From Arthrobacter sp. Marseille-P9274 (GTDB lineage: Bacteria; Actinomycetota; Actinomycetes; Actinomycetales; Micrococcaceae), in NCBI RefSeq assembly GCF_946892675.1, contig NZ_CAMPOV010000001.1, forward strand, positions 124,001-188,000: DNA of 64,000 nucleotides, read 5' to 3'. The position numbers and the translations under genes are program-made. Below are positions 4,977-17,228 of this stretch, in pieces. The notes below the pieces were generated by a model, which did no database searches, was not told the DNA's origin, and saw only the letters and a program-made list of their open reading frames with translations. Within the stretch, counting starts at the first letter, position 1, and every line of letters begins with the position of its first letter.

Positions 4977-5142
4977 TCATTGTTACAAATCCGTGTAATG
5001 AACTCGCCGGTCGCCAGCGCCCCTGCTAAACATCGCGGTCGAGTGCCGAAGTCCTCCCGCGCCGAGGTCATGCGAAACCGGAAACCGGCCCTTCGGCTAG
5101 TAACATCGGACGGAATTCGCCCGCGATGCTTTGGAGACACGC

Positions 5143-6333
5143 TTGTCGTTGCCCGCCACCGACCCTGCCCCGCCCAAGCGCCCCGAGTTTCCGTACCTGG
5201 ACGGCCTCCGCGGCCTCTCGGCGGTCCTCGTCGTGCTCTACCACACCTACCTCTTCACAGGCCTCAGCGGCGAGTCCCGCGCAGAGCTGCCGATGCTCAA
5301 GGAGTTCCTGGGCTGGGGCTACCTCGGTGTCCCCGTGTTCATCGTGCTCTCGGGATACGTGCTGATGCTGCCCGTCCTCTCGACGCCGGGACTGAAGTTC
5401 CGCCACGGTGTGTGGTCCTTCATCAAGCGCCGCGGCAAACGCATCCTGCCGCCCTACTACGCCGCCCTCGTCTTCTCGCTCCTGCTGATCGCACTTTTCC
5501 CGGTCCTGCAGGAAAAGGGCGGAACCCAGTGGGACTCGAAAATCCCCGTCACGTGGGGCAGCACCATCAGCCACTTCCTGATGCTGCACGATTTCAACCA
5601 CCACTGGATCGGCAAGATCAACGGTCCGCTCTGGAGCGTCGCCGTCGAATGGCACATCTATTTCCTGATGCCGCTGCTGCTCCTGCCGCTGTGGCGGCGG
5701 ATCCACCCCGCAATCATCGTCGGTGCCCTCACTGCAGCGAGCTTCTGGCTGCTGGCCGAGCGCGCCTTCGGCTTCGTGCATCCCTGGCTGGTGGCCCTCT
5801 TCGCCGCCGGGATGTGGGCCGCGCAGCTGACCATGCGTCAGCAAACGGTCCGGGCCGCCGGCCCCGTCTTCATTCTCCTGGCCGCCGCTACGGTCGGCTG
5901 CGCCGTGTTCAGGTCGGACATCACGCTGCCCACCCGCGGCCTGATGGAACTGATGACCGGATTGGCCGTCGCCGCCGGCCTCGTCTGGCTGGGTCGCCGG
6001 GCCGTGGCGGGGAGGATCCCCCGCGGCGCGAGGCTCCTGCAGGCGCGCCCAATGCTCTTCCTCGGGCTGATTTCCTACAGCGTCTACCTGTTCCACAGCC
6101 CCCTCCTCGGACTGGCGAACCTGCTGCTGCTGCCGCTCGACCTGAGCCTGGCCACCCACTGGGCCGTCATGACGTTCGCCGTCATGCCGGCTGTCCTCGT
6201 CCTTTGCTGGCTCTTCTTCCTGCTGGTCGAGCGGCACTTCCTCAACACGCGCCAGCGGCACACCGTTGAGGCGCATGATCCCGCCGGGCAGCCCGACACG
6301 GGCCTTGAAGACGCGCCGGCCGTTCGGAACTAG
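5143..6333 (+). CDS. OafA-type membrane acyltransferase (acyltransferase 3)
   Basis: Integral membrane O-acyltransferase of 396 residues from the chosen TTG, which has GGAG six bases upstream. The N-terminus carries the family motif YLDGLRGLSAVLVVLYH with its conserved His, followed by GVPVFIVLSGYV. About ten hydrophobic segments follow, ending in a short polar tail. Proteins of this family transfer acetyl or other acyl groups to exported glycans or lipids at the membrane. The exopolysaccharide genes begin 2.5 kb downstream, so acylation of that polymer is possible but unproven, because two minus-strand genes lie between. Confidence 0.9.
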   Translation: MSLPATDPAPPKRPEFPYLDGLRGLSAVLVVLYHTYLFTGLSGESRAELPMLKEFLGWGYLGVPVFIVLSGYVLMLPVLSTPGLKFRHGVWSFIKRRGKRILPPYYAALVFSLLLIALFPVLQEKGGTQWDSKIPVTWGSTISHFLMLHDFNHHWIGKINGPLWSVAVEWHIYFLMPLLLLPLWRRIHPAIIVGALTAASFWLLAERAFGFVHPWLVALFAAGMWAAQLTMRQQTVRAAGPVFILLAAATVGCAVFRSDITLPTRGLMELMTGLAVAAGLVWLGRRAVAGRIPRGARLLQARPMLFLGLISYSVYLFHSPLLGLANLLLLPLDLSLATHWAVMTFAVMPAVLVLCWLFFLLVERHFLNTRQRHTVEAHDPAGQPDTGLEDAPAVRN

Positions 6334-8889: not shown

Positions 8890-10170
8890 GTGTTTTCCTT
8901 GGGGGAAATCTTCGACGATATTGCCGCGTCCATTGACTGGACGGCCATCCACGAAATCTATGTAGAAGTCTCGCCGTATTTCCCGGTCGCGGTGGCCGGC
9001 ACCATTGTCTGGGGCCTGTGGATCTACCGCTTCATTCTCTCCCGCCGGGCCCGACCGATCATCACGGGACACCGGGCCACAACCTCGGTCATCGTCCCGT
9101 CCTTCCACGAGGATCCGGACATCCTCATGAGCGCGCTCGAGTCCTGGCGGGCGCAGTGGCCGGACGAGATCATCATCGTGCTGGACGTCGAGGACCTGGA
9201 GGCCTACCGGCGCGTCACGGCGCTGGGCGATCCCACGGTCCAACCGATCCTTTTCCACCACGTGGGCAAGCGCTCGGCGCTCGGCGCCGGCATCAGGCTG
9301 GCGCGCTACGACCTGCTGGTCCTGACGGACTCGGACACGTGGTGGCAGCCGGGCCTGTTGGAGACGGTCCAGATGCCGTTCGAGGACCCCCTGGTGGGGG
9401 CCGTCGGGACGCACCAGAACGTCTATCAGCGGGACACCAGCCTGTGGCGGCGGATCGCCGACTGGCTGGTCAACCTGCGCTACCTGGACTACGTGCCGGC
9501 GATGGGCCGGGCCGGGGCGGTACCCTGCATCTCGGGGCGCACCGCAGTGTACCGCCGGGCGGCCGTACTGCCGGTGCTGGAGCATCTGGAGAACGAGTAC
9601 TTCCTGGGCCGGCGGTGCATCTCCGGCGACGACGGCCGGCTGACCTGGCTGGTCATCGCCTCCGGCTACAAGACCGTCCACCAGTCCATGGCCCGGGCAC
9701 TGTCGATGTTCCCGTCCAGCTTCCGCGCGTTCGTCAAGCAACGCATCCGCTGGAGCCGGAACTCCTACCGCTGCTACCTGACCGCCATCGGCACCGGCTG
9801 GCTCTGGCGGGTTCCGTTCATCACCAAGGTGACGGTACTGCAGATCCTGCTGACGCCGGTCACCATGGGGCTGACCCTCCTCTACCTGGTCTTCAGCAGG
9901 CTGGAGCTGACTCCGCTGGGCGTCGCCGCGGCGGCCAGCTGGCTGCTGCTCGGCCGCGCCGTCCGCGGTGTTTCGCACCTGCGCCGGCATCCCAAAGACC
10001 TGCTGATCCTGCCGATACTGGCATTCGCCGTCATCTTCGTGGCGCTGCCCATCAAGGTGTACGCGTTCGCCACGATGAACAAGCAGGGCTGGCTGACACG
10101 CCACGCGGACCAGACCGGCGGCGACGGCCAGGACGCCACCACCCTCGAGACCTCGGAGGCGGCGGCATGA
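8890..10170 (+). CDS. Processive membrane glycosyltransferase, GT2 (hyaluronan synthase/Alg8-like)
   Basis: Polysaccharide synthase of 426 residues. It starts at a GTG with AGGAG five bases upstream. An N-terminal membrane span (about 32-50) precedes the GT-A domain. The domain has SVIVPSFHED, the DXD motif at residues 147-149 (LTDSDTWW), the GDD motif at 246-248 (ISGDDGRLT) and the processive-synthase motif KQRIRW at 283-288. Four hydrophobic segments follow, as in synthases that couple polymerisation to export. The GDD and QRIRWS motifs are those of hyaluronan synthases and Alg8. A UDP-glucose dehydrogenase gene downstream suggests UDP-glucuronate as donor. It overlaps the next gene by ATGA. 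Confidence 0.92.
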   Translation: MFSLGEIFDDIAASIDWTAIHEIYVEVSPYFPVAVAGTIVWGLWIYRFILSRRARPIITGHRATTSVIVPSFHEDPDILMSALESWRAQWPDEIIIVLDVEDLEAYRRVTALGDPTVQPILFHHVGKRSALGAGIRLARYDLLVLTDSDTWWQPGLLETVQMPFEDPLVGAVGTHQNVYQRDTSLWRRIADWLVNLRYLDYVPAMGRAGAVPCISGRTAVYRRAAVLPVLEHLENEYFLGRRCISGDDGRLTWLVIASGYKTVHQSMARALSMFPSSFRAFVKQRIRWSRNSYRCYLTAIGTGWLWRVPFITKVTVLQILLTPVTMGLTLLYLVFSRLELTPLGVAAAASWLLLGRAVRGVSHLRRHPKDLLILPILAFAVIFVALPIKVYAFATMNKQGWLTRHADQTGGDGQDATTLETSEAAA

Positions 10171-12026
10171 GGAATCCCGCCATCATCATTTCCGCGCTGT
10201 TTCTGGTCGTCGCGGCGCTGGCGGCAGGCTTCTTCGTCGTCGGCGATTTCCTCAAGGAGAAGGACGTGGACGCCTTTGGCCGCAACGAGATCGCCAGCAA
10301 CGGCAACGTCCAGGGCGAGCTCTACCCCGGCGACCCGAGGACCGAGGCCAGGCTGGTCCAGCGCGAGGACGAGCGCCTCATCTATGTCCGCACGGTCGCC
10401 TCCGCCGCCCGCTGGCGCGTCGACGGGCTCAAGGGCCCCTATCGGCTGCGCACCGACTCCACCTTTACCCTGGTGCTGCCGGCGCGGGAGACTCCCTACA
10501 CCGTCGCCGACCTCCTGCAGCTCGCGCCCAAGGCCTTCGTCCGGCATCCGGGCGGCGCCTACCTGCTCTCCGAAAACATCGTGGTGCTGCCGGGCGCCAA
10601 CCTCTCGCTGGCAACGGCCAAGGGGGCGAAGAGCCTGGACCTCCGGCTGGAAAGCAGCGCCGGCTCCTTTGTCTCCCTCGTGGCCCTCGGCGGGTCCGTC
10701 ACCATCGCCGGCACAAAGGACGCCAAGGTCTCCATTACCAGCTGGGACAGCACCAAGGCGTCCCCGGACTTTGAAACCAGGGACGGCCGTTCCTACATCC
10801 GGCTGATCGGCGGACATGCCAAGCTCTCGCATGCCAGGGTGGCCAACCTCGGCTTCTGGAGCGGCAACACCGGCGGGCTGTCGCTGACGGGAACCAACAC
10901 CATCAGCCCCTTCAAGCCGGCGGCCCCGCCGCCCAAACCAGCGCCCCAGGACGCCGCCATCGCCGGTGCACGGCTGCTCTCCGACAAGCAGCTGGAGACC
11001 CTCCACCCCGCCGACGAGGACTACAGCGTGGTCACCGCGGGAATCGACAACGCGGTCTTCGAGAACAACGCCTTCGGGCTCTTCGCCGCCAACGCGCGGG
11101 ACGTCGCAGTCCAGGACACCGCCATCCGCGGGAGCCTGGTGGACGGACTGGTCCTGCACCGGTTCGTCACGAACGCGGCCATCACCAGGACCACCTCCTC
11201 GAACAACGCGGTGGACGGTTTCACGCTGGGGCGGTCCACCACCGGCGTCGTGCTGGACGGCGTCACTGCCCAAGACAACGGCCGCAACGGCGTCTCGCTG
11301 GACGGCCGCCCGCTCTCGGACGGCCCCAATGCGGTGGGCACCGCCGTCGAAATCTACGGCCGCAACCGCATCACCGGCAGCACGCTGAAGGACAACCGCC
11401 GGTACGGCGTCGAGATCAGCGGCGGCGCCCGGCTGCGGGTCGCCGGCAACACGTTCGAGAAGAACCAGGTCGGCGTCGTCGTCAACCATGCAGCCAGGGA
11501 CGTCGTCATCACCGGCAACAAACTGCGGCACCAGAAGGAACACGCCATCGCCATCCGCGAGGCCGGTGCCTCCGCCGTCGTCAGCAAAAACCTCATCACC
11601 GGCGCCGACACGGGCGTCTACGTGCGCAACGCCCGGGCCGACGTCACCGCCAACAGACTGGCCGGCATCTCCAACCACGGGATCACGCTGCGCGGCCGCG
11701 TGGCCGGGACCCAGGTGGCGGGCAACACGGTCTCCGGCTACGGCTCCATCGCCATCTGGGCGGAGGAGTCCGCCGGCGGCGCCGTGGGAGAGAATAACCT
11801 GCTCGGCTGGCAGCCAGAGTATACGCTGCAGCGGGTGGCCAATTTCGTCTTCCAGCCGCTGACCTTCGTGTGGCTGGTCCTCGGCGCGCTGCTGCTGGTG
11901 ACCGCCCTCTCCGGTGGCCGCAGGCGGCGGACCGGAACCATCCGCAACCCCTACGCAGAACGGGTGCCTCTGACCTCGCTGAGCAAGGGCATCCTGGCAC
12001 CCGAAGAGATCGGAGAGCGGGAATGA
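10167..12026 (+). CDS. Membrane-anchored right-handed beta-helix protein, AlgG-like
   Basis: A 619-residue protein with an N-terminal signal anchor (residues 5-27) and a C-terminal membrane span near 570-590 followed by a basic tail. Between them lie a mixed alpha/beta region and, from about 240 to 550, repeated parallel beta-helix coils with many Asn/Gly turns (ENNAFGLFA, SSNNAVDGF, GNTFEKNQVGVVV, GNKLRHQ). The segment SYIRLIGGHAKL then NLGFW resembles the entry of the AlgG C5-epimerase helix, but I cannot find its DPHD catalytic motif. It probably binds, guides or epimerises the nascent polymer outside the membrane. ATGA overlaps on both sides tie it to the synthase and the next protein. 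Confidence 0.85.
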   Translation: MRNPAIIISALFLVVAALAAGFFVVGDFLKEKDVDAFGRNEIASNGNVQGELYPGDPRTEARLVQREDERLIYVRTVASAARWRVDGLKGPYRLRTDSTFTLVLPARETPYTVADLLQLAPKAFVRHPGGAYLLSENIVVLPGANLSLATAKGAKSLDLRLESSAGSFVSLVALGGSVTIAGTKDAKVSITSWDSTKASPDFETRDGRSYIRLIGGHAKLSHARVANLGFWSGNTGGLSLTGTNTISPFKPAAPPPKPAPQDAAIAGARLLSDKQLETLHPADEDYSVVTAGIDNAVFENNAFGLFAANARDVAVQDTAIRGSLVDGLVLHRFVTNAAITRTTSSNNAVDGFTLGRSTTGVVLDGVTAQDNGRNGVSLDGRPLSDGPNAVGTAVEIYGRNRITGSTLKDNRRYGVEISGGARLRVAGNTFEKNQVGVVVNHAARDVVITGNKLRHQKEHAIAIREAGASAVVSKNLITGADTGVYVRNARADVTANRLAGISNHGITLRGRVAGTQVAGNTVSGYGSIAIWAEESAGGAVGENNLLGWQPEYTLQRVANFVFQPLTFVWLVLGALLLVTALSGGRRRRTGTIRNPYAERVPLTSLSKGILAPEEIGERE

Positions 12027-13147
12027 ACAGACGTCCGCTGGCCCTACTGGCCGCCCTCATGACGCTGGCGGCGATCGCCGTCGTCACCGTCTTCATCGTC
12101 AACGGTCCGCTGCGCGGGCCAAATGACGACGCCGGCGCCCTCCCGAGTGCGCCGGTCACCGGCGCGGCACCCGGGTCCGGCACCGCGACGGAAGGCAATG
12201 CATCGGGAGGGAACGCGCCCAAAGGCAGTGCGCCGCCGTCGTCCGTTCCCGCCGCCGCGGCCGGATGCCCGGAGGCCACCGTCACAGTCCGCACCGAGGC
12301 CGAACTCGAGGGTGCGCTGGAGGAACCCGAACCGGGCACGGTCATCGTGCTGTCGGACGGCGTCTACCAAGGCAACTTCACCGCGACGGGGGACGGCACG
12401 GCCGAGCAGCCCATCACCCTCTGCGGCAGTGCCAAGGCGATCCTCGACGGCGGCGACATCGAGGACGGCTACGTCTTCCACCTTGACCAGGCGGCGCACT
12501 GGGTGCTGCAGGGCTTTACCGTGCGCAACGGGCAGAAGGGCGTCATGGCGGACGAGGTCACCCACTCCGTGATCCGCGGCCTGACCGTCACCAAGACCGG
12601 CGACGAGGCCATCCACCTGCGCCGCTTCAGCACCGACAACCTGGTCATCGGCAACACCATTTCCGATACCGGGCACCGCAAAGAAAAGTTTGGCGAGGGC
12701 ATCTACATCGGCACCGCCGAGAGCAACTGGTGCGACGTGAGCAACTGCGAGCCGGACCAAAGCGACCGCAACGAGATCGCGGAAAACAAAATCTCCGCGA
12801 CGACATCGGAGAACGTGGACATCAAGGAAGGAACAGCCAACGGCGTGCTCCGCGACAACCATTTCGACGGCGCCGACCTCGAGGAGGCCGACTCCTGGGT
12901 CGACGTCAAAGGCAAGGGCTGGACCATCACCGGCAACACCGGCACCGACTCACCGGGTGACGGCTACCAGACGCACGAGATCCTGGACGGCTGGGGCACG
13001 GACAACGTCTTCCGCGGCAACACGGCGCAGGTCAACGGGCCCGGCTACGGGTACGCCCTGACCCCCGCCCTGAACAATGTGGTCGAATGCAGCAACCGTG
13101 CCACCGCCGCCGAAAGCGGCCTCTCCAACGAACCCTGCACCAGCTGA
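12023..13147 (+). CDS. Secreted right-handed beta-helix protein (pectate lyase-like)
   Basis: A 374-residue protein with an N-terminal signal sequence or anchor (residues 8-28). A disordered Ala/Gly/Ser/Pro linker follows, then from about residue 85 a parallel beta-helix of the pectate-lyase superfold (TVIVLSDGVYQGNFT, GFTVRNGQKGVM, GNTISDTG, DNHFDGA). Five or more Cys in the helix could form disulfides, as expected outside the cell. A lyase, hydrolase or epimerase acting on the polymer is plausible, but no catalytic set is certain. It overlaps the preceding gene by ATGA and is the third gene of the operon. Confidence 0.85.
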   Translation: MNRRPLALLAALMTLAAIAVVTVFIVNGPLRGPNDDAGALPSAPVTGAAPGSGTATEGNASGGNAPKGSAPPSSVPAAAAGCPEATVTVRTEAELEGALEEPEPGTVIVLSDGVYQGNFTATGDGTAEQPITLCGSAKAILDGGDIEDGYVFHLDQAAHWVLQGFTVRNGQKGVMADEVTHSVIRGLTVTKTGDEAIHLRRFSTDNLVIGNTISDTGHRKEKFGEGIYIGTAESNWCDVSNCEPDQSDRNEIAENKISATTSENVDIKEGTANGVLRDNHFDGADLEEADSWVDVKGKGWTITGNTGTDSPGDGYQTHEILDGWGTDNVFRGNTAQVNGPGYGYALTPALNNVVECSNRATAAESGLSNEPCTS

Positions 13148-13213
13148 TCCTTATCCTCCCCCTCCACCCAACCGCTTGAGAATTCCGCCGGAAACCTAGG
13201 AAAGGCCGTCACC

Positions 13214-14650
13214 GTGGAACCGATTCCCTACTCCCCCGCGCCCAAAATCACCGTGATAGGCACCGGCTACCTGGGTGCCACCCATGCCATCTGCATGGCC
13301 GTGCTCGGCTTCGATGTGCTCGGCGTGGACGTGGACGAGCGCAAGATTGCGCAGTTGGACGCCGGAGAGGTGCCGTTCTTTGAACCCGGGCTGTCGGAGA
13401 AGCTGCGGGAGGCCATCGCCACCGGCCGGCTGCGCTTCACCACGGACTTCGACCAGGCCGCTGCCTTCGGCGACGTGCACTTCGTCTGCGTCGGGACGCC
13501 GCAGGCGGCCAACTCCGCCGCCGCCGAGCTGAAGTACGTGCACGCCGCCTTCACCTCGCTCGCCTCGCGCATCGACCGCAAGGCACTGCTGGTGGGCAAG
13601 TCCACGGTGCCCATCGGCACCGCCGCCCGGCTGGCCCGGATGGTGCACGAGCTCTCCCCCGCCGGCGTCGACCTGGAGCTGGCGTGGAATCCCGAGTTCC
13701 TGCGCGAGGGCTACGCCGTCGAGGACACCCTGCACCCGGACCGCCTGGTCGTCGGCGTCGCCTCGGAGTGGGCCGAAGCCCGGCTGCGCCGCGTCTTCGA
13801 GCCGCTGCTGGCGCAGGGCACGCCGTTGATCGTGACCGAGCTGGCCACCGCCGAACTGGTCAAAGTCGCGGCCAATTCCTTCCTCGCGACCAAGATCTCC
13901 TTCATCAACGCCATGGCCGAGGTCTGCGAAGCCACCGGCGCCGACGTGAGCCTGCTGGCCCGCGCGCTCAGCCTGGACTCGCGGATCGGCGGGCGCTTCC
14001 TCAAACCGGGCCTCGGCTTCGGCGGCGGCTGCCTGCCCAAGGACATCCGTGCCTTCAAGCACCGGGCCGAAGAGCTCGGCGTCGGCCAGGCCGTGCGCTT
14101 CCTCAGCGAAGTCGACTCCATCAACAACCGTCGCCGCACCCGCAGCGTCGACCTCATTCGCGAGCTGGCCGGCGGCGACCTGGCCGGTGTGAAAGTCGCG
14201 GCACTCGGCGCGGCCTTCAAACCCAACTCCGACGACGTCCGCGACGCGCCCGCCCTCGATGTCGCCCGGCTGCTGTACCTGGAAGGGGCCGCCGTCACGG
14301 TCTACGATCCGGAGGCCAACCGCAATGCCCACCGCGCCTACCCGGACCTGGACTACGCCGGCTCGCTCGCCGGCGCGGTCCAGGACGCCGACGTCGTCGC
14401 CCTGCTCACCGAGTGGGACGAGTTCCGCCGCGCCGAACCCCAGCAGCTCGCCGCCCTCGTCGCGCACCGCCGCATCTTCGACGGCCGCCACGCCCTCGAC
14501 CAGGACCTGTACACCGGGCTCGGCTGGGAATACCGTGCCCTCGGCCGCCCGTACCAGCCCAGCACCGCCCGCGCCGCCACGCAGGACGGACGCGTACCCC
14601 GGCCCGGCGCCGTCGTTGGCGAAACACCGCAGGACGCGCGCACCACCTAG
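13214..14650 (+). CDS. ugd: UDP-glucose 6-dehydrogenase
   Basis: Oxidises UDP-glucose to UDP-glucuronate with two NAD+, supplying the uronate donor. The 478-residue protein has the NAD motif GTGYLG at 16-21, the catalytic Cys273 in FGGGCLPKD, the conserved Lys/Asn of KVAANSFLATKISF, and the C-terminal UDP-binding domain with FKPNSDDVRDAP. Length and motifs fit UDP-glucose rather than GDP-mannose enzymes, though the families are related. The start is a GTG with AGGAAAGG upstream. It lies 66 bp after the beta-helix gene and is followed by a strong hairpin, so it probably ends the first transcription unit. Confidence 0.93.
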   Translation: MEPIPYSPAPKITVIGTGYLGATHAICMAVLGFDVLGVDVDERKIAQLDAGEVPFFEPGLSEKLREAIATGRLRFTTDFDQAAAFGDVHFVCVGTPQAANSAAAELKYVHAAFTSLASRIDRKALLVGKSTVPIGTAARLARMVHELSPAGVDLELAWNPEFLREGYAVEDTLHPDRLVVGVASEWAEARLRRVFEPLLAQGTPLIVTELATAELVKVAANSFLATKISFINAMAEVCEATGADVSLLARALSLDSRIGGRFLKPGLGFGGGCLPKDIRAFKHRAEELGVGQAVRFLSEVDSINNRRRTRSVDLIRELAGGDLAGVKVAALGAAFKPNSDDVRDAPALDVARLLYLEGAAVTVYDPEANRNAHRAYPDLDYAGSLAGAVQDADVVALLTEWDEFRRAEPQQLAALVAHRRIFDGRHALDQDLYTGLGWEYRALGRPYQPSTARAATQDGRVPRPGAVVGETPQDARTT

Positions 14651-14829: not shown

Positions 14830-15804
14830 TTGGTAAGCCAGCCTCTAGTAAGTGTCGTCGTTCCGGCGAAGGACCAGTCGCCCTTCATCCGTGATTCGAT
14901 GACGAGCCTGTCCCGCCAGTTCGAAGACCCTTCCGTGCTGGAAGTGGTGGTGGTCGACGACGGTTCCACCGACGGCACGGGTGAGCTGGCCGGGGCCTTC
15001 GCGAGCCAGCTGCCCGGCCTCAAGATCCTGCGGAACGACAAGCCCGCCGGTGTTGCCACTGCCCGGAACCAGGGCATCGACGTGGCCTCCGGCCGCTACC
15101 TGGCGTTCCTGGACCCCGACGACTGGTATGCGCCCGGCTACCTTCCGAAGCTGGTGGCGGAAATCGACCAGCTGGGTGTGGATTTCCTTCGGACCGACCA
15201 CATCCGCCATACCGCCGGAAACCGCAGCATCCACCGCGCTCCGCAGGCCCTGCACGGAACCGTCCTCGACCCCCGGGCGGACATTGCCCCGTACAACACC
15301 TCCACGATGATCGACTACCCGATCGTCGCCTTCGGAATCTACGACGGCCGGCTCAAAGACTCGGGGATGCTCCATTTCCTCGACGGGCGGCACACCGCCG
15401 AGGACCGGCCGTGGATGTGGCGGCTCCATCTGCAGTGCAAGAGCTACGCCATCAGCGACCAGCTCGGCGTCATCTACCGGCGCGGGGTCTCCACGTCCCT
15501 CACCCAGATCTATGACCGGCGCCAGCTGGACTTCCTGCCGTGCTTCGAAGAGATCTTCCGCCTCGTGGCCCAGGACTCGGAGGCTGACCGCTTCTGGCCC
15601 AAGGCCGGCCGGCAGTTCCTGGCCATCGCCTGCCACCACCTCAACAGGTCGGAACATATGCCATCGGACGTCTTCGCCGACCTGCAGACGGGGATCGGCC
15701 AAACCTTCGCGACCTTGCCGTCCGACGTCGCCGCGGAAAGCCTGGCGGTGCTCGATTCCAAGCGGCGTGCCCTGGTCGCCCCCATCCTTCGGAGGCCTGT
15801 GTGA
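14830..15804 (+). CDS. Family 2 glycosyltransferase
   Basis: A soluble GT2 enzyme of 324 residues. The GT-A core has SVVVPAKD at the start, VVDDGSTDGTG at 42-51 and the metal-binding DPDD at 95-98. No membrane span is seen, unlike the processive synthase upstream. It should add single sugars to a glycan or lipid acceptor in the cytoplasm. The start is a TTG with GAGGGG upstream. Its stop overlaps the GTG of the next gene, so the two are translationally coupled. A hairpin separates the pair from the synthase operon, so it may be an independent unit. Confidence 0.88.
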   Translation: MVSQPLVSVVVPAKDQSPFIRDSMTSLSRQFEDPSVLEVVVVDDGSTDGTGELAGAFASQLPGLKILRNDKPAGVATARNQGIDVASGRYLAFLDPDDWYAPGYLPKLVAEIDQLGVDFLRTDHIRHTAGNRSIHRAPQALHGTVLDPRADIAPYNTSTMIDYPIVAFGIYDGRLKDSGMLHFLDGRHTAEDRPWMWRLHLQCKSYAISDQLGVIYRRGVSTSLTQIYDRRQLDFLPCFEEIFRLVAQDSEADRFWPKAGRQFLAIACHHLNRSEHMPSDVFADLQTGIGQTFATLPSDVAAESLAVLDSKRRALVAPILRRPV

Positions 15805-17228
15805 AAGAGCTGTTCGTCGTCTCCACCCTCTACCAGTGCGTGGCACTGGCTGCTGCCATCGATGAAGGCGCCATTCCGCCGGCCGCGGGCGAGCGGATCC
15901 TGGTCCTGTCCAACAACTCCCTCGTCCCCGAGGTGTCGGTTCCCTTCCACGAGGCGCCCGGGTTCGCCGAGGCGGCCTCCCGCTTTGACCGCACCGTGGA
16001 CCTGAACGCGCTGGTCTGGCCGCGTCGTCCCGGACAGTTCAATCCACGCGCCGAAGAACTCTACATGTGGCAGCGCGTCCTGCGTGCCCTGTGGGACCTG
16101 GGGGATGACCGCGTGGAGCTGTACGTCGAATCGATCCAGGTCAATCCCGCCGTCGCGCTCTGCCGGATCTTTTCGAGCGCCCGGATCTCCGTGCACTCCG
16201 ACGGCCTGATGAGCTACGGCCCGACGCGCAATCCCATCTCCCGCGAGATGGCCCAGCGGTTCAAGTCGCTCATCTACGTCGATCTGGTGCCGGGTCTGGT
16301 GCCCCAGCTGCTGCGCGAAAACAATCCAGCCCTGGTCCCCGTCGACCGGACAGCCCTCCGTCGCGGCATGGAGGAACTGGCCAGGGCCCTGCCCGAGGAG
16401 CACACGACGTTGTCGGCCTTCTCCGGCACTCCCGCGGCGGATCAGCGGAAGTCGGGAGCGCGGGCGGAGGCCGCAGGGCAGCCGACCGCCCTGGTGCTGG
16501 GCCAGTACCTGTCCGAGCTGAACATCCTCTCCTCCACCGAGGAAATCGAGCTCCACCGGACCATGCTGCAGAAGGCGCTGGACCGCGGCATCCGGTACTG
16601 CGTCTTCAAGCCGCACCCCAGTGCCGGCCCCGGCGCCGTGACCTCCATCCAGGCGGCCGCGGCCGAACTGGGGCTGGAACTTCACGTGCTCACCTCCACC
16701 AGCCCGGCCGAGGTCGTCATGCAGCGGCTCAAGCCGGACCTGGTGGTCAGCTGCTTCTCCACCGCCCTGATGACGGCGAAATACCTGTTCAATATCGACG
16801 TCGCGGCAGTCGGCACGGACGTTCTTTTGGAGCGGCTGACGCCCTACGAAAACAGCAACCGCATCCCCGTCACCATCATCGACGCCCTCCTCGAGCGCGG
16901 TTATGCCGCGCCGGCCGAGATCCCGGGCGGCGCCGGAACGGACGGGGCCGGAGCTGCGGCTCCGCTGCAGCGGCTGGTCGAGGCGGTGGCCTACTGCATG
17001 CAGCCGGACACCCTGGCGGCGGTCCGGCCCCCGGCCGAGGCCTTCCTCGCCACCGCGGACGGCTCGCCGGACATGCGGTACTTCAAGCGGCGCAGGCTCA
17101 CGAAGCTGGAGCTGCCCGGGGCGCTGCCGCCGCGCGAGCCCAAGCCATCCCGGTCCCGTCATCCCCTGCACCGGGCCCGCCGCGTGGGAATCCGGTGGGC
17201 TAAGCGGCTCGCCCGGCGCACCCCCTAG
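15801..17228 (+). CDS. Polysialyltransferase-family glycosyltransferase (POLYST-like)
   Basis: A 475-residue GT-B-type enzyme. It carries the three signatures of bacterial sialyltransferase families: an acidic-Gly motif (HSDGLMSYGP, residues 132-141), the HP motif in FKPHPS (272-273) and a Ser/Thr motif in SCFSTALM (317-324). An Ala/Gly-rich insert at about 205-230 and a basic tail after residue 440 are variable. The family name need not mean sialic acid is used; no CMP-sialate genes are in the window. The start GTG lies within the GTGTGA that ends the GT2 gene. The pair probably builds a surface glycan. Confidence 0.82.
   Translation: MKELFVVSTLYQCVALAAAIDEGAIPPAAGERILVLSNNSLVPEVSVPFHEAPGFAEAASRFDRTVDLNALVWPRRPGQFNPRAEELYMWQRVLRALWDLGDDRVELYVESIQVNPAVALCRIFSSARISVHSDGLMSYGPTRNPISREMAQRFKSLIYVDLVPGLVPQLLRENNPALVPVDRTALRRGMEELARALPEEHTTLSAFSGTPAADQRKSGARAEAAGQPTALVLGQYLSELNILSSTEEIELHRTMLQKALDRGIRYCVFKPHPSAGPGAVTSIQAAAAELGLELHVLTSTSPAEVVMQRLKPDLVVSCFSTALMTAKYLFNIDVAAVGTDVLLERLTPYENSNRIPVTIIDALLERGYAAPAEIPGGAGTDGAGAAAPLQRLVEAVAYCMQPDTLAAVRPPAEAFLATADGSPDMRYFKRRRLTKLELPGALPPREPKPSRSRHPLHRARRVGIRWAKRLARRTP

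Follow-up and report, generated by a model that had tools for sequence, protein, structure and literature searches.

A conserved four-gene cassette of actinobacteria predicted to make, modify and trim a glucuronate exopolysaccharide

The 64,000-nucleotide stretch of Arthrobacter sp. Marseille-P9274 analysed here (hereafter the window; G000:C1:124001-188000 in a 4.78-Mb genome) carries four plus-strand genes at 8890-14650. These encode a processive family-2 glycosyltransferase (GT2A), a parallel beta-helix protein homologous to the alginate epimerase AlgG (BHX1, for beta-helix 1), a second beta-helix protein homologous to a polysaccharide lyase (the PL31-type protein) and a UDP-glucose 6-dehydrogenase (UGD). 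We consider it reasonably probable that they form a self-contained actinobacterial cassette for a synthase-dependent exopolysaccharide, in which a glucuronate chain is modified by BHX1 and trimmed by the lyase. The combination of synthase, dehydrogenase, AlgG homologue and lyase suggests that a uronate polymer is made, modified on the outer face of the membrane and trimmed. We infer both the sugar composition of this polymer, which is probably polyglucuronate, and its epimerisation.

The four genes are tightly packed. GT2A (8890-10170), predicted to be the polymer synthase and its own exporter, begins with a GTG codon a short distance after an AGGAG sequence. BHX1 (10167-12026), a putative co-synthetic polymer modifier (candidate C5-epimerase) or guide, and the PL31-type gene (12023-13147) each overlap the preceding gene through ATGA, and UGD (13214-14650), the predicted source of UDP-glucuronate (UDP-GlcA), follows after a 66-bp gap. 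A preliminary description of this locus had read the same order (GT2, beta-helix, beta-helix, UGD) on the plus strand, and all four genes are indeed present. Its mention of 'three ATGA overlaps or short gaps' was right about the tight junctions, which are precisely two overlaps and one gap. The domains recognised by Pfam and NCBIfam models are GT2, Beta_helix/NosD and UDPG_MGDP_dh. A scan for promoters and terminators gave 0 and 1 sites, compared with 0.6 and 4.5 expected. The same description had called the first beta-helix protein membrane-anchored and the second secreted. A crude hydropathy scan finds a hydrophobic segment at each end of the BHX1 protein of the window and a single N-terminal hydrophobic segment, accompanied by a Pro/Ala/Gly-rich linker, in its PL31-type protein, which could be either secreted or anchored.

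This gene arrangement is strongly conserved. A scan of GTDB with BHX1 as the only query found 166 relatives, of which the best 80 were kept, so that more distant relatives are not represented. The full cassette, with its gene order unchanged, is found in 64 of these 80 loci. Among the other 16, nine are cut by contig ends, six have no UGD in the stretch retrieved around BHX1 and one (L089) has UGD upstream. Because the other three genes adjoin BHX1, the sole query, in the same order at 64 loci, their association is not due to chance, and the lack of gene-order conservation that would have spoken against the earlier proposal was not observed. The hosts include Micrococcaceae, Microbacteriaceae, Cellulomonas, Demequina, Kribbella, Nocardioides, Kineococcus, Nakamurella, Micromonosporaceae, Streptomyces, Actinomadura and others.

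A sample of 295 genomes of the same family, which overlaps in part with the GTDB loci (the same contigs recur), gives a consistent picture. Strong BHX1 matches (E < 1e-100) occur at 11 places in nine of these genomes, three further genomes have only weak matches near E = 1e-3, and the four genes keep their order at each of the 10 places that lie outside the window. A GT2A profile (E ≤ 1e-40) finds the same nine genomes and 11 places and none other, and a PL31-type profile (E ≤ 1e-20) finds the same nine genomes plus two. In an even sample of the phylum, BHX1 (E ≤ 1e-20) is present in three of 396 genomes, the window's genome included. The cassette is therefore widespread but patchy among actinobacteria. 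Distance matrices for the four proteins, computed from 60 four-gene loci and the window, are correlated, most highly for GT2A and BHX1 (0.92; other pairs 0.56-0.79; shuffle maximum 0.27). The synthase tree mostly tracks taxonomic families, with some exceptions, and the nearest relatives of the window's synthase are from Micrococcaceae. Searches for signs of a mobile origin gave no plasmid match for BHX1 (E ≤ 1e-15) and no phage match for the PL31-type protein (E ≤ 1e-5); three plasmid records match the PL31-type protein at 32-41% identity.

When open reading frames of at least 100 residues were clustered across 79 loci, no further gene family occurred in more than 13 loci. The most frequent, with 17 members in 13 loci on either strand, was rejected as a fifth part; the three members examined are major facilitator superfamily (MFS) transporters. 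Apart from this family the clustering brought up no frequent neighbour, and it was not a search aimed at Alg44, AlgK, AlgE or AlgX.

GT2A belongs to Pfam PF13641 (E = 5.8e-25), and its best-scoring curated family is NodC, of which it is not a member (125 bits against a cut-off of 550). The solved chains nearest to it are hyaluronan synthases, with the chlorovirus enzyme CvHAS matched at E = 4e-17 with the single sequence and at 7.5e-26 with a profile of 41 sequences. In a 2026 report on CvHAS, UDP-GlcA is placed near K177, R341 and W342, and R348 is described as contacting the priming loop (PMC12987647). Mapped by single-sequence alignment, with residue numbers equal to chain index minus one, these four residues correspond to K127, R287, W288 and R294 of GT2A, each retained in 41 of 41 family members, and the acceptor-site residue R303 of CvHAS corresponds to Gly249, likewise in 41 of 41. 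Between two and four hydrophobic segments per synthase were counted by the hydropathy scan. GT2A is thus a hyaluronan-synthase-like GT2 that has the UDP-GlcA-contacting residues. Because these contacts are invariant, GT2A can plausibly bind UDP-GlcA, yet it is no close copy of a hyaluronan synthase.

UGD matches the TIGR03026 model above its cut-off (E = 1.5e-125) and the TuaD equivalog below it (367 bits, cut-off 700). Its profile scores 370 bits with the UDP-glucose dehydrogenase 4a7p in the PDB, compared with 216 bits for the GDP-mannose dehydrogenase 1mfz. With three UDPG_MGDP_dh domains and UDP-glucose enzymes as its nearest relatives, the protein is not a GDP-mannose dehydrogenase of the AlgD kind. 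This enzyme and the hyaluronan-synthase-like site of GT2A both point to glucuronate (GlcA), and it is on this basis that we infer the sugar.

The closest solved relative of BHX1 by sequence is AlgG. AlgG is also its closest structural relative among the chains compared, with the same fold to 1.8-1.9 Å at 15-16% sequence identity, and the homology is collinear and includes the N-terminal part. The structural comparison suggested with the preliminary description therefore did recover an AlgG-like fold. The curated AlgG model NF038177 matches BHX1 at 22.1 bits (E = 5.3e-5), far short of its cut-off of 700 bits, and matches 13 of the 49 BHX1 family members at E ≤ 1e-3 (best 1.2e-6). Run over the whole of the window's own genome, this model gave no match at E ≤ 0.001.

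The placement of the AlgG active site on BHX1 depends on the alignment register. The catalytic histidine of AlgG is residue 319, because the title of 4nk8 reads D317A, and the arginine that shields the substrate is presumably R345, a number that agrees with the residue count. In hhalign comparisons of segments that include both active-site rungs, H319 falls on H331 in 8 of 8 cases (two control runs end before H331), and in segments that reach R345 this arginine falls on R356 in 6 of 6. Full-length hhalign runs instead put R345 on R332 in 4 of 4, a register shifted by one rung. HMMER supports H331 with 4nk8 and the alternative register with the other three AlgG chains listed. The DPHD motif is not kept in either register, and its histidine alone could be kept, as H331, in one of them. 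We tentatively prefer the H331 register, which retains the catalytic histidine and the arginine, because it is consistent with the strand order set by the shared N-terminal part. For AlgG itself, a 2015 review describes the DPHD histidine as the probable proton abstractor, Tyr314 as holding a water molecule and the arginine as shielding the carboxylate (PMC4444821).

Within the family, H331 is invariant (49 of 49 members), and R332 and R356 are each present in 48. Charged groove residues had been proposed as a check on the preliminary description, and they prove invariant or nearly invariant in both beta-helix proteins. The epimerisation that it had proposed is plausible insofar as BHX1 is an AlgG homologue, and is weakened by the missing DPHD motif and by a score of 22 bits with the AlgG model, whose cut-off is 700. 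A C-terminal hydrophobic segment is seen by crude hydropathy in 47 of 49 members, and the C-terminal tail contains an invariant Pro-Tyr (P595-Y596). The loop preceding the active-site rungs is about 30 residues longer than in AlgG.

The second beta-helix protein could be placed more specifically than had been claimed, as a homologue of the alginate lyase PsAly (6kfn), with E = 7.5e-38 over residues 86-338. We take the family of PsAly and of this protein to be PL31. PsAly numbers used here equal chain index plus 34, as fixed by the Cys42-Cys47 disulphide. According to its description (PMC6796002), PsAly from Paenibacillus sp. FPU-7 is endolytic, prefers polymannuronate and has Tyr184 and Lys221 as catalytic residues, and the cation ligands and conserved cleft residues are listed there. 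Its residues K128, H154, R156, E181, Y184, E216 and D219 correspond to K172, H198, R200, E225, Y228, E263 and D266, and K221, D246, D250, K252, Q276 and H278 correspond to K268, D290, D294, K296, Q316 and H318. All 13 catalytic, metal-binding or cleft residues are thus retained, 11 of them in 44 of 44 family members, D294 in 42 and Q316 in 43. The catalytic tyrosine and lysine and the side-chain cation ligands (Y228, K268, E225, E263, D266 and D290) are among the invariant ones, with Q316 at 43 of 44. The PL31-type protein is very probably an active lyase, to judge from this site, perhaps acting on a different uronate.

In 24 of the 80 loci (L027-L034, L043, L046, L082 and others) the neighbourhood of the cassette contains another PL31 homologue, in many cases encoded on the opposite strand. 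Five of these second copies were aligned, and all five keep the 13 key residues; four have an extra N-terminal region that is immunoglobulin-like in appearance.

We propose that these proteins would act in the following manner. UGD, as its family suggests, would oxidise UDP-glucose to UDP-GlcA, which GT2A, from its family and residue mapping, is predicted to polymerise processively while passing the growing chain out by way of a membrane channel of its own, as hyaluronan synthase does. The chain would most likely be a beta-1,4-linked polyglucuronate. BHX1, probably tethered near the synthase by both ends, would bind the polyanion in its groove as the chain emerges and would modify it, most likely as a C5-epimerase that converts some of the glucuronate to iduronate, a predicted activity for a protein whose homology to AlgG is established. 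The PsAly-type lyase, whose homology and active site are evident and whose substrate is predicted, would cleave the polymer by beta-elimination and so trim or release the chain as AlgL does. If GT2A extrudes its own product, no exporter of the Alg44/K/E type would be needed. Actinobacteria of this group have no outer membrane of the Pseudomonas type to cross, and since a synthase of the hyaluronan-synthase type is self-secreting, four genes could be enough. Such enzymes are reported to secrete their own product (PMC12987647).

The cassette is best placed by comparison with known systems. Like the alginate system of Pseudomonas and Azotobacter (Alg8, Alg44, AlgK, AlgE, AlgG, AlgX, AlgL, AlgD), it combines in a single operon a processive GT2 synthase and a nucleotide-sugar dehydrogenase with an AlgG homologue and a lyase. 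It differs in having a UDP-glucose-type rather than a GDP-mannose dehydrogenase, a HAS/NodC-like synthase (HAS, hyaluronan synthase), a beta-helix lyase of the PsAly type where alginate producers have AlgL, a PL5 enzyme, and no comparably conserved further gene beside it. The alginate-like architecture proposed in the preliminary description stands as true homology for one part, BHX1 and AlgG; membership of the alginate system is not supported, given the dehydrogenase. Compared with AlgG (4nk6, 4nk8, 4ozy, 4ozz), BHX1 has collinear homology, the same fold and a possible His/Arg correspondence, but it lacks DPHD and Tyr314 and has hydrophobic segments at both ends. The cassette lyase is homologous to PsAly over the beta-helix domain and keeps the catalytic Tyr/Lys and both cation sites, whereas it has an invariant Ala/Asn for D188/K191 and sits in a biosynthetic-looking operon. 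With the class I hyaluronan synthase CvHAS and the streptococcal has operon the cassette shares similarity along the synthase, the UDP-GlcA-contacting residues and a UGD partner, and it departs from them in the AlgG-like beta-helix and lyase partners and in the change of R303 to Gly. We class the cassette as a variant of synthase-dependent exopolysaccharide systems, outside the alginate system.

Several observations weigh against a glucuronate polymer modified by BHX1 and trimmed by the lyase. Ala232 and Asn235 take the place of PsAly D188 and K191 in all 44 family members, and for this reason the substrate of the lyase may differ from that of PsAly, in which mutants of these two residues are reported to keep 6.8% and 2.1% of activity, a loss of 93-98% (PMC6796002). 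The DPHD motif is lost: in the H331 register, D317, P318 and D320 become V, L and R in the window protein, and Tyr314 becomes D326, a position occupied by D in 35, H in 9, G in 3 and A in 2 of the 49 members. The register itself depends on the segment aligned, and all four full-length runs give another. An N-terminal hydrophobic segment is found by crude hydropathy in just 36 of the 49 BHX1 proteins. The HAS residues that bind GlcA may occur in other processive GT2 enzymes too. No UGD lies beside the cassette in six loci (L058, L059, L062, L067, L085 and L088, five Catellatospora and one Nakamurella), and there is a second strong UGD match elsewhere in the window's genome, for which reason the cassette copy looks dedicated.

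Two alternatives concern what is made and whether it is modified. BHX1 might be a non-catalytic guide or scaffold that leaves the polymer unmodified, an idea that we regard as a serious contender, if short of an even chance. It is favoured by the loss of DPHD, by the variable Tyr314 position in the register that keeps the histidine and the absence of a catalytic histidine in the other, by the missed NF038177 cut-off and by the statement in the 2015 review that mutants without AlgG yield unsaturated oligomers and no alginate, pointing to a structural function of AlgG in export (PMC4444821). The same source treats AlgG as part of the export complex and AlgL as thought to reach only stray polymer. 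The near invariance of H331, R332 and R356 in an AlgG-like fold suggests instead selection on groove chemistry, although binding alone could explain it. The product might also be a hyaluronan-like heteropolymer in which GlcA alternates with N-acetylhexosamine, made from two UDP-sugars as by CvHAS and acted on by both beta-helix proteins. The solved synthase closest to GT2A is a hyaluronan synthase, the best-scoring curated family of GT2A is NodC, both HAS and NodC use UDP-GlcNAc, and the pairing of synthase and UGD recalls the streptococcal has operon. However, the polyuronate on which AlgG/AlgE and PsAly act is 1,4-linked and has no interposed hexosamine, the acceptor-site R303 is Gly in every member, and no further gene family is found in more than 13 of the 79 loci; we find this heteropolymer rather unlikely. 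Polyglucuronate is favoured over it because both beta-helix relatives act on 1,4-polyuronate. The fullest version of our proposal, a UDP-GlcA-based counterpart of alginate in which beta-1,4-polyglucuronate is partly converted to L-iduronate by an AlgG-derived membrane protein during export and trimmed by a PsAly-type lyase, is put forward tentatively. Its boldest step, the putative epimerisation to iduronate, is plausible.

Two further alternatives are much weaker. True alginate (mannuronan) in an actinobacterium would account for the presence of homologues of both AlgG and a polymannuronate lyase, but the dehydrogenase is of the UDP-glucose type, the synthase matches HAS and NodC models (the comparison included no Alg8 model), and DPHD and the equivalents of PsAly D188/K191 are changed. 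The dehydrogenase and synthase families lead us to reject alginate proper, which is highly improbable. A catabolic cluster that degrades environmental alginate or another polyuronate is suggested by the fact that PsAly, the solved relative of gene 3, is an alginate lyase. We reject this idea, which is if anything slightly less probable still, on the near-constant presence of the synthase and UGD; the only other frequent family, the MFS transporters, is confined to 13 of the 79 loci.

No description of this cassette was found in searches of the open-access literature. All of the protein families are known, at least distantly; what appears to be new is the combination, its spread in actinobacteria and the pairing of a HAS-like synthase with a homologue of AlgG. 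According to a 2023 paper, it is still not known which genes direct the synthesis of glucuronan (PMC10180729). Epimerisation of glycosaminoglycans in bacteria is described as poorly understood in a 2015 review (PMC4432689), and a survey of synthase-dependent polymers places alginate operons largely in Pseudomonas (PMC7112194). If correct, our proposal would identify a genetic locus for a glucuronan-type polymer and a glucuronyl epimerase derived from AlgG, each the first of its kind, and would show an AlgG-type protein paired with a single-membrane, self-exporting synthase. A four-gene candidate makes the questions of glucuronan synthesis and epimerisation directly testable in harmless actinobacteria, and could yield enzymes for making iduronate-containing polymers without animal sources.

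Additional observations concern the surroundings of the cassette and its relatives. After the cassette, at 14830-17228 of the window, lie two mutually overlapping genes, a second GT2 gene (GT2B) that starts with TTG and a member of the polysialyltransferase family PF07388; they were rejected as cassette parts, as neither has a match at E ≤ 1e-4 in the loci of 10 relatives. An acyltransferase-3 family gene at 5131-6333 lies about 2.6 kb upstream, with two minus-strand genes in between. It could have a role in acylation of the polymer, and a similar gene (27% identity) is found in only one of the 10 relatives' loci. Different cassettes occur in pairs in two genomes, separated by about 57 kb (L023/L018 in G263) and 62 kb (L024/L022 in G277). 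Tandem BHX1 matches occur in two Actinomadura loci, and the match in one Streptosporangiaceae locus is of sufficient length for two (L099, L100 and L104). Finally, a contig labelled Vibrio cholerae strain 35D (L045) bears the whole actinobacterial cassette and is almost certainly contamination or a mislabelled record.

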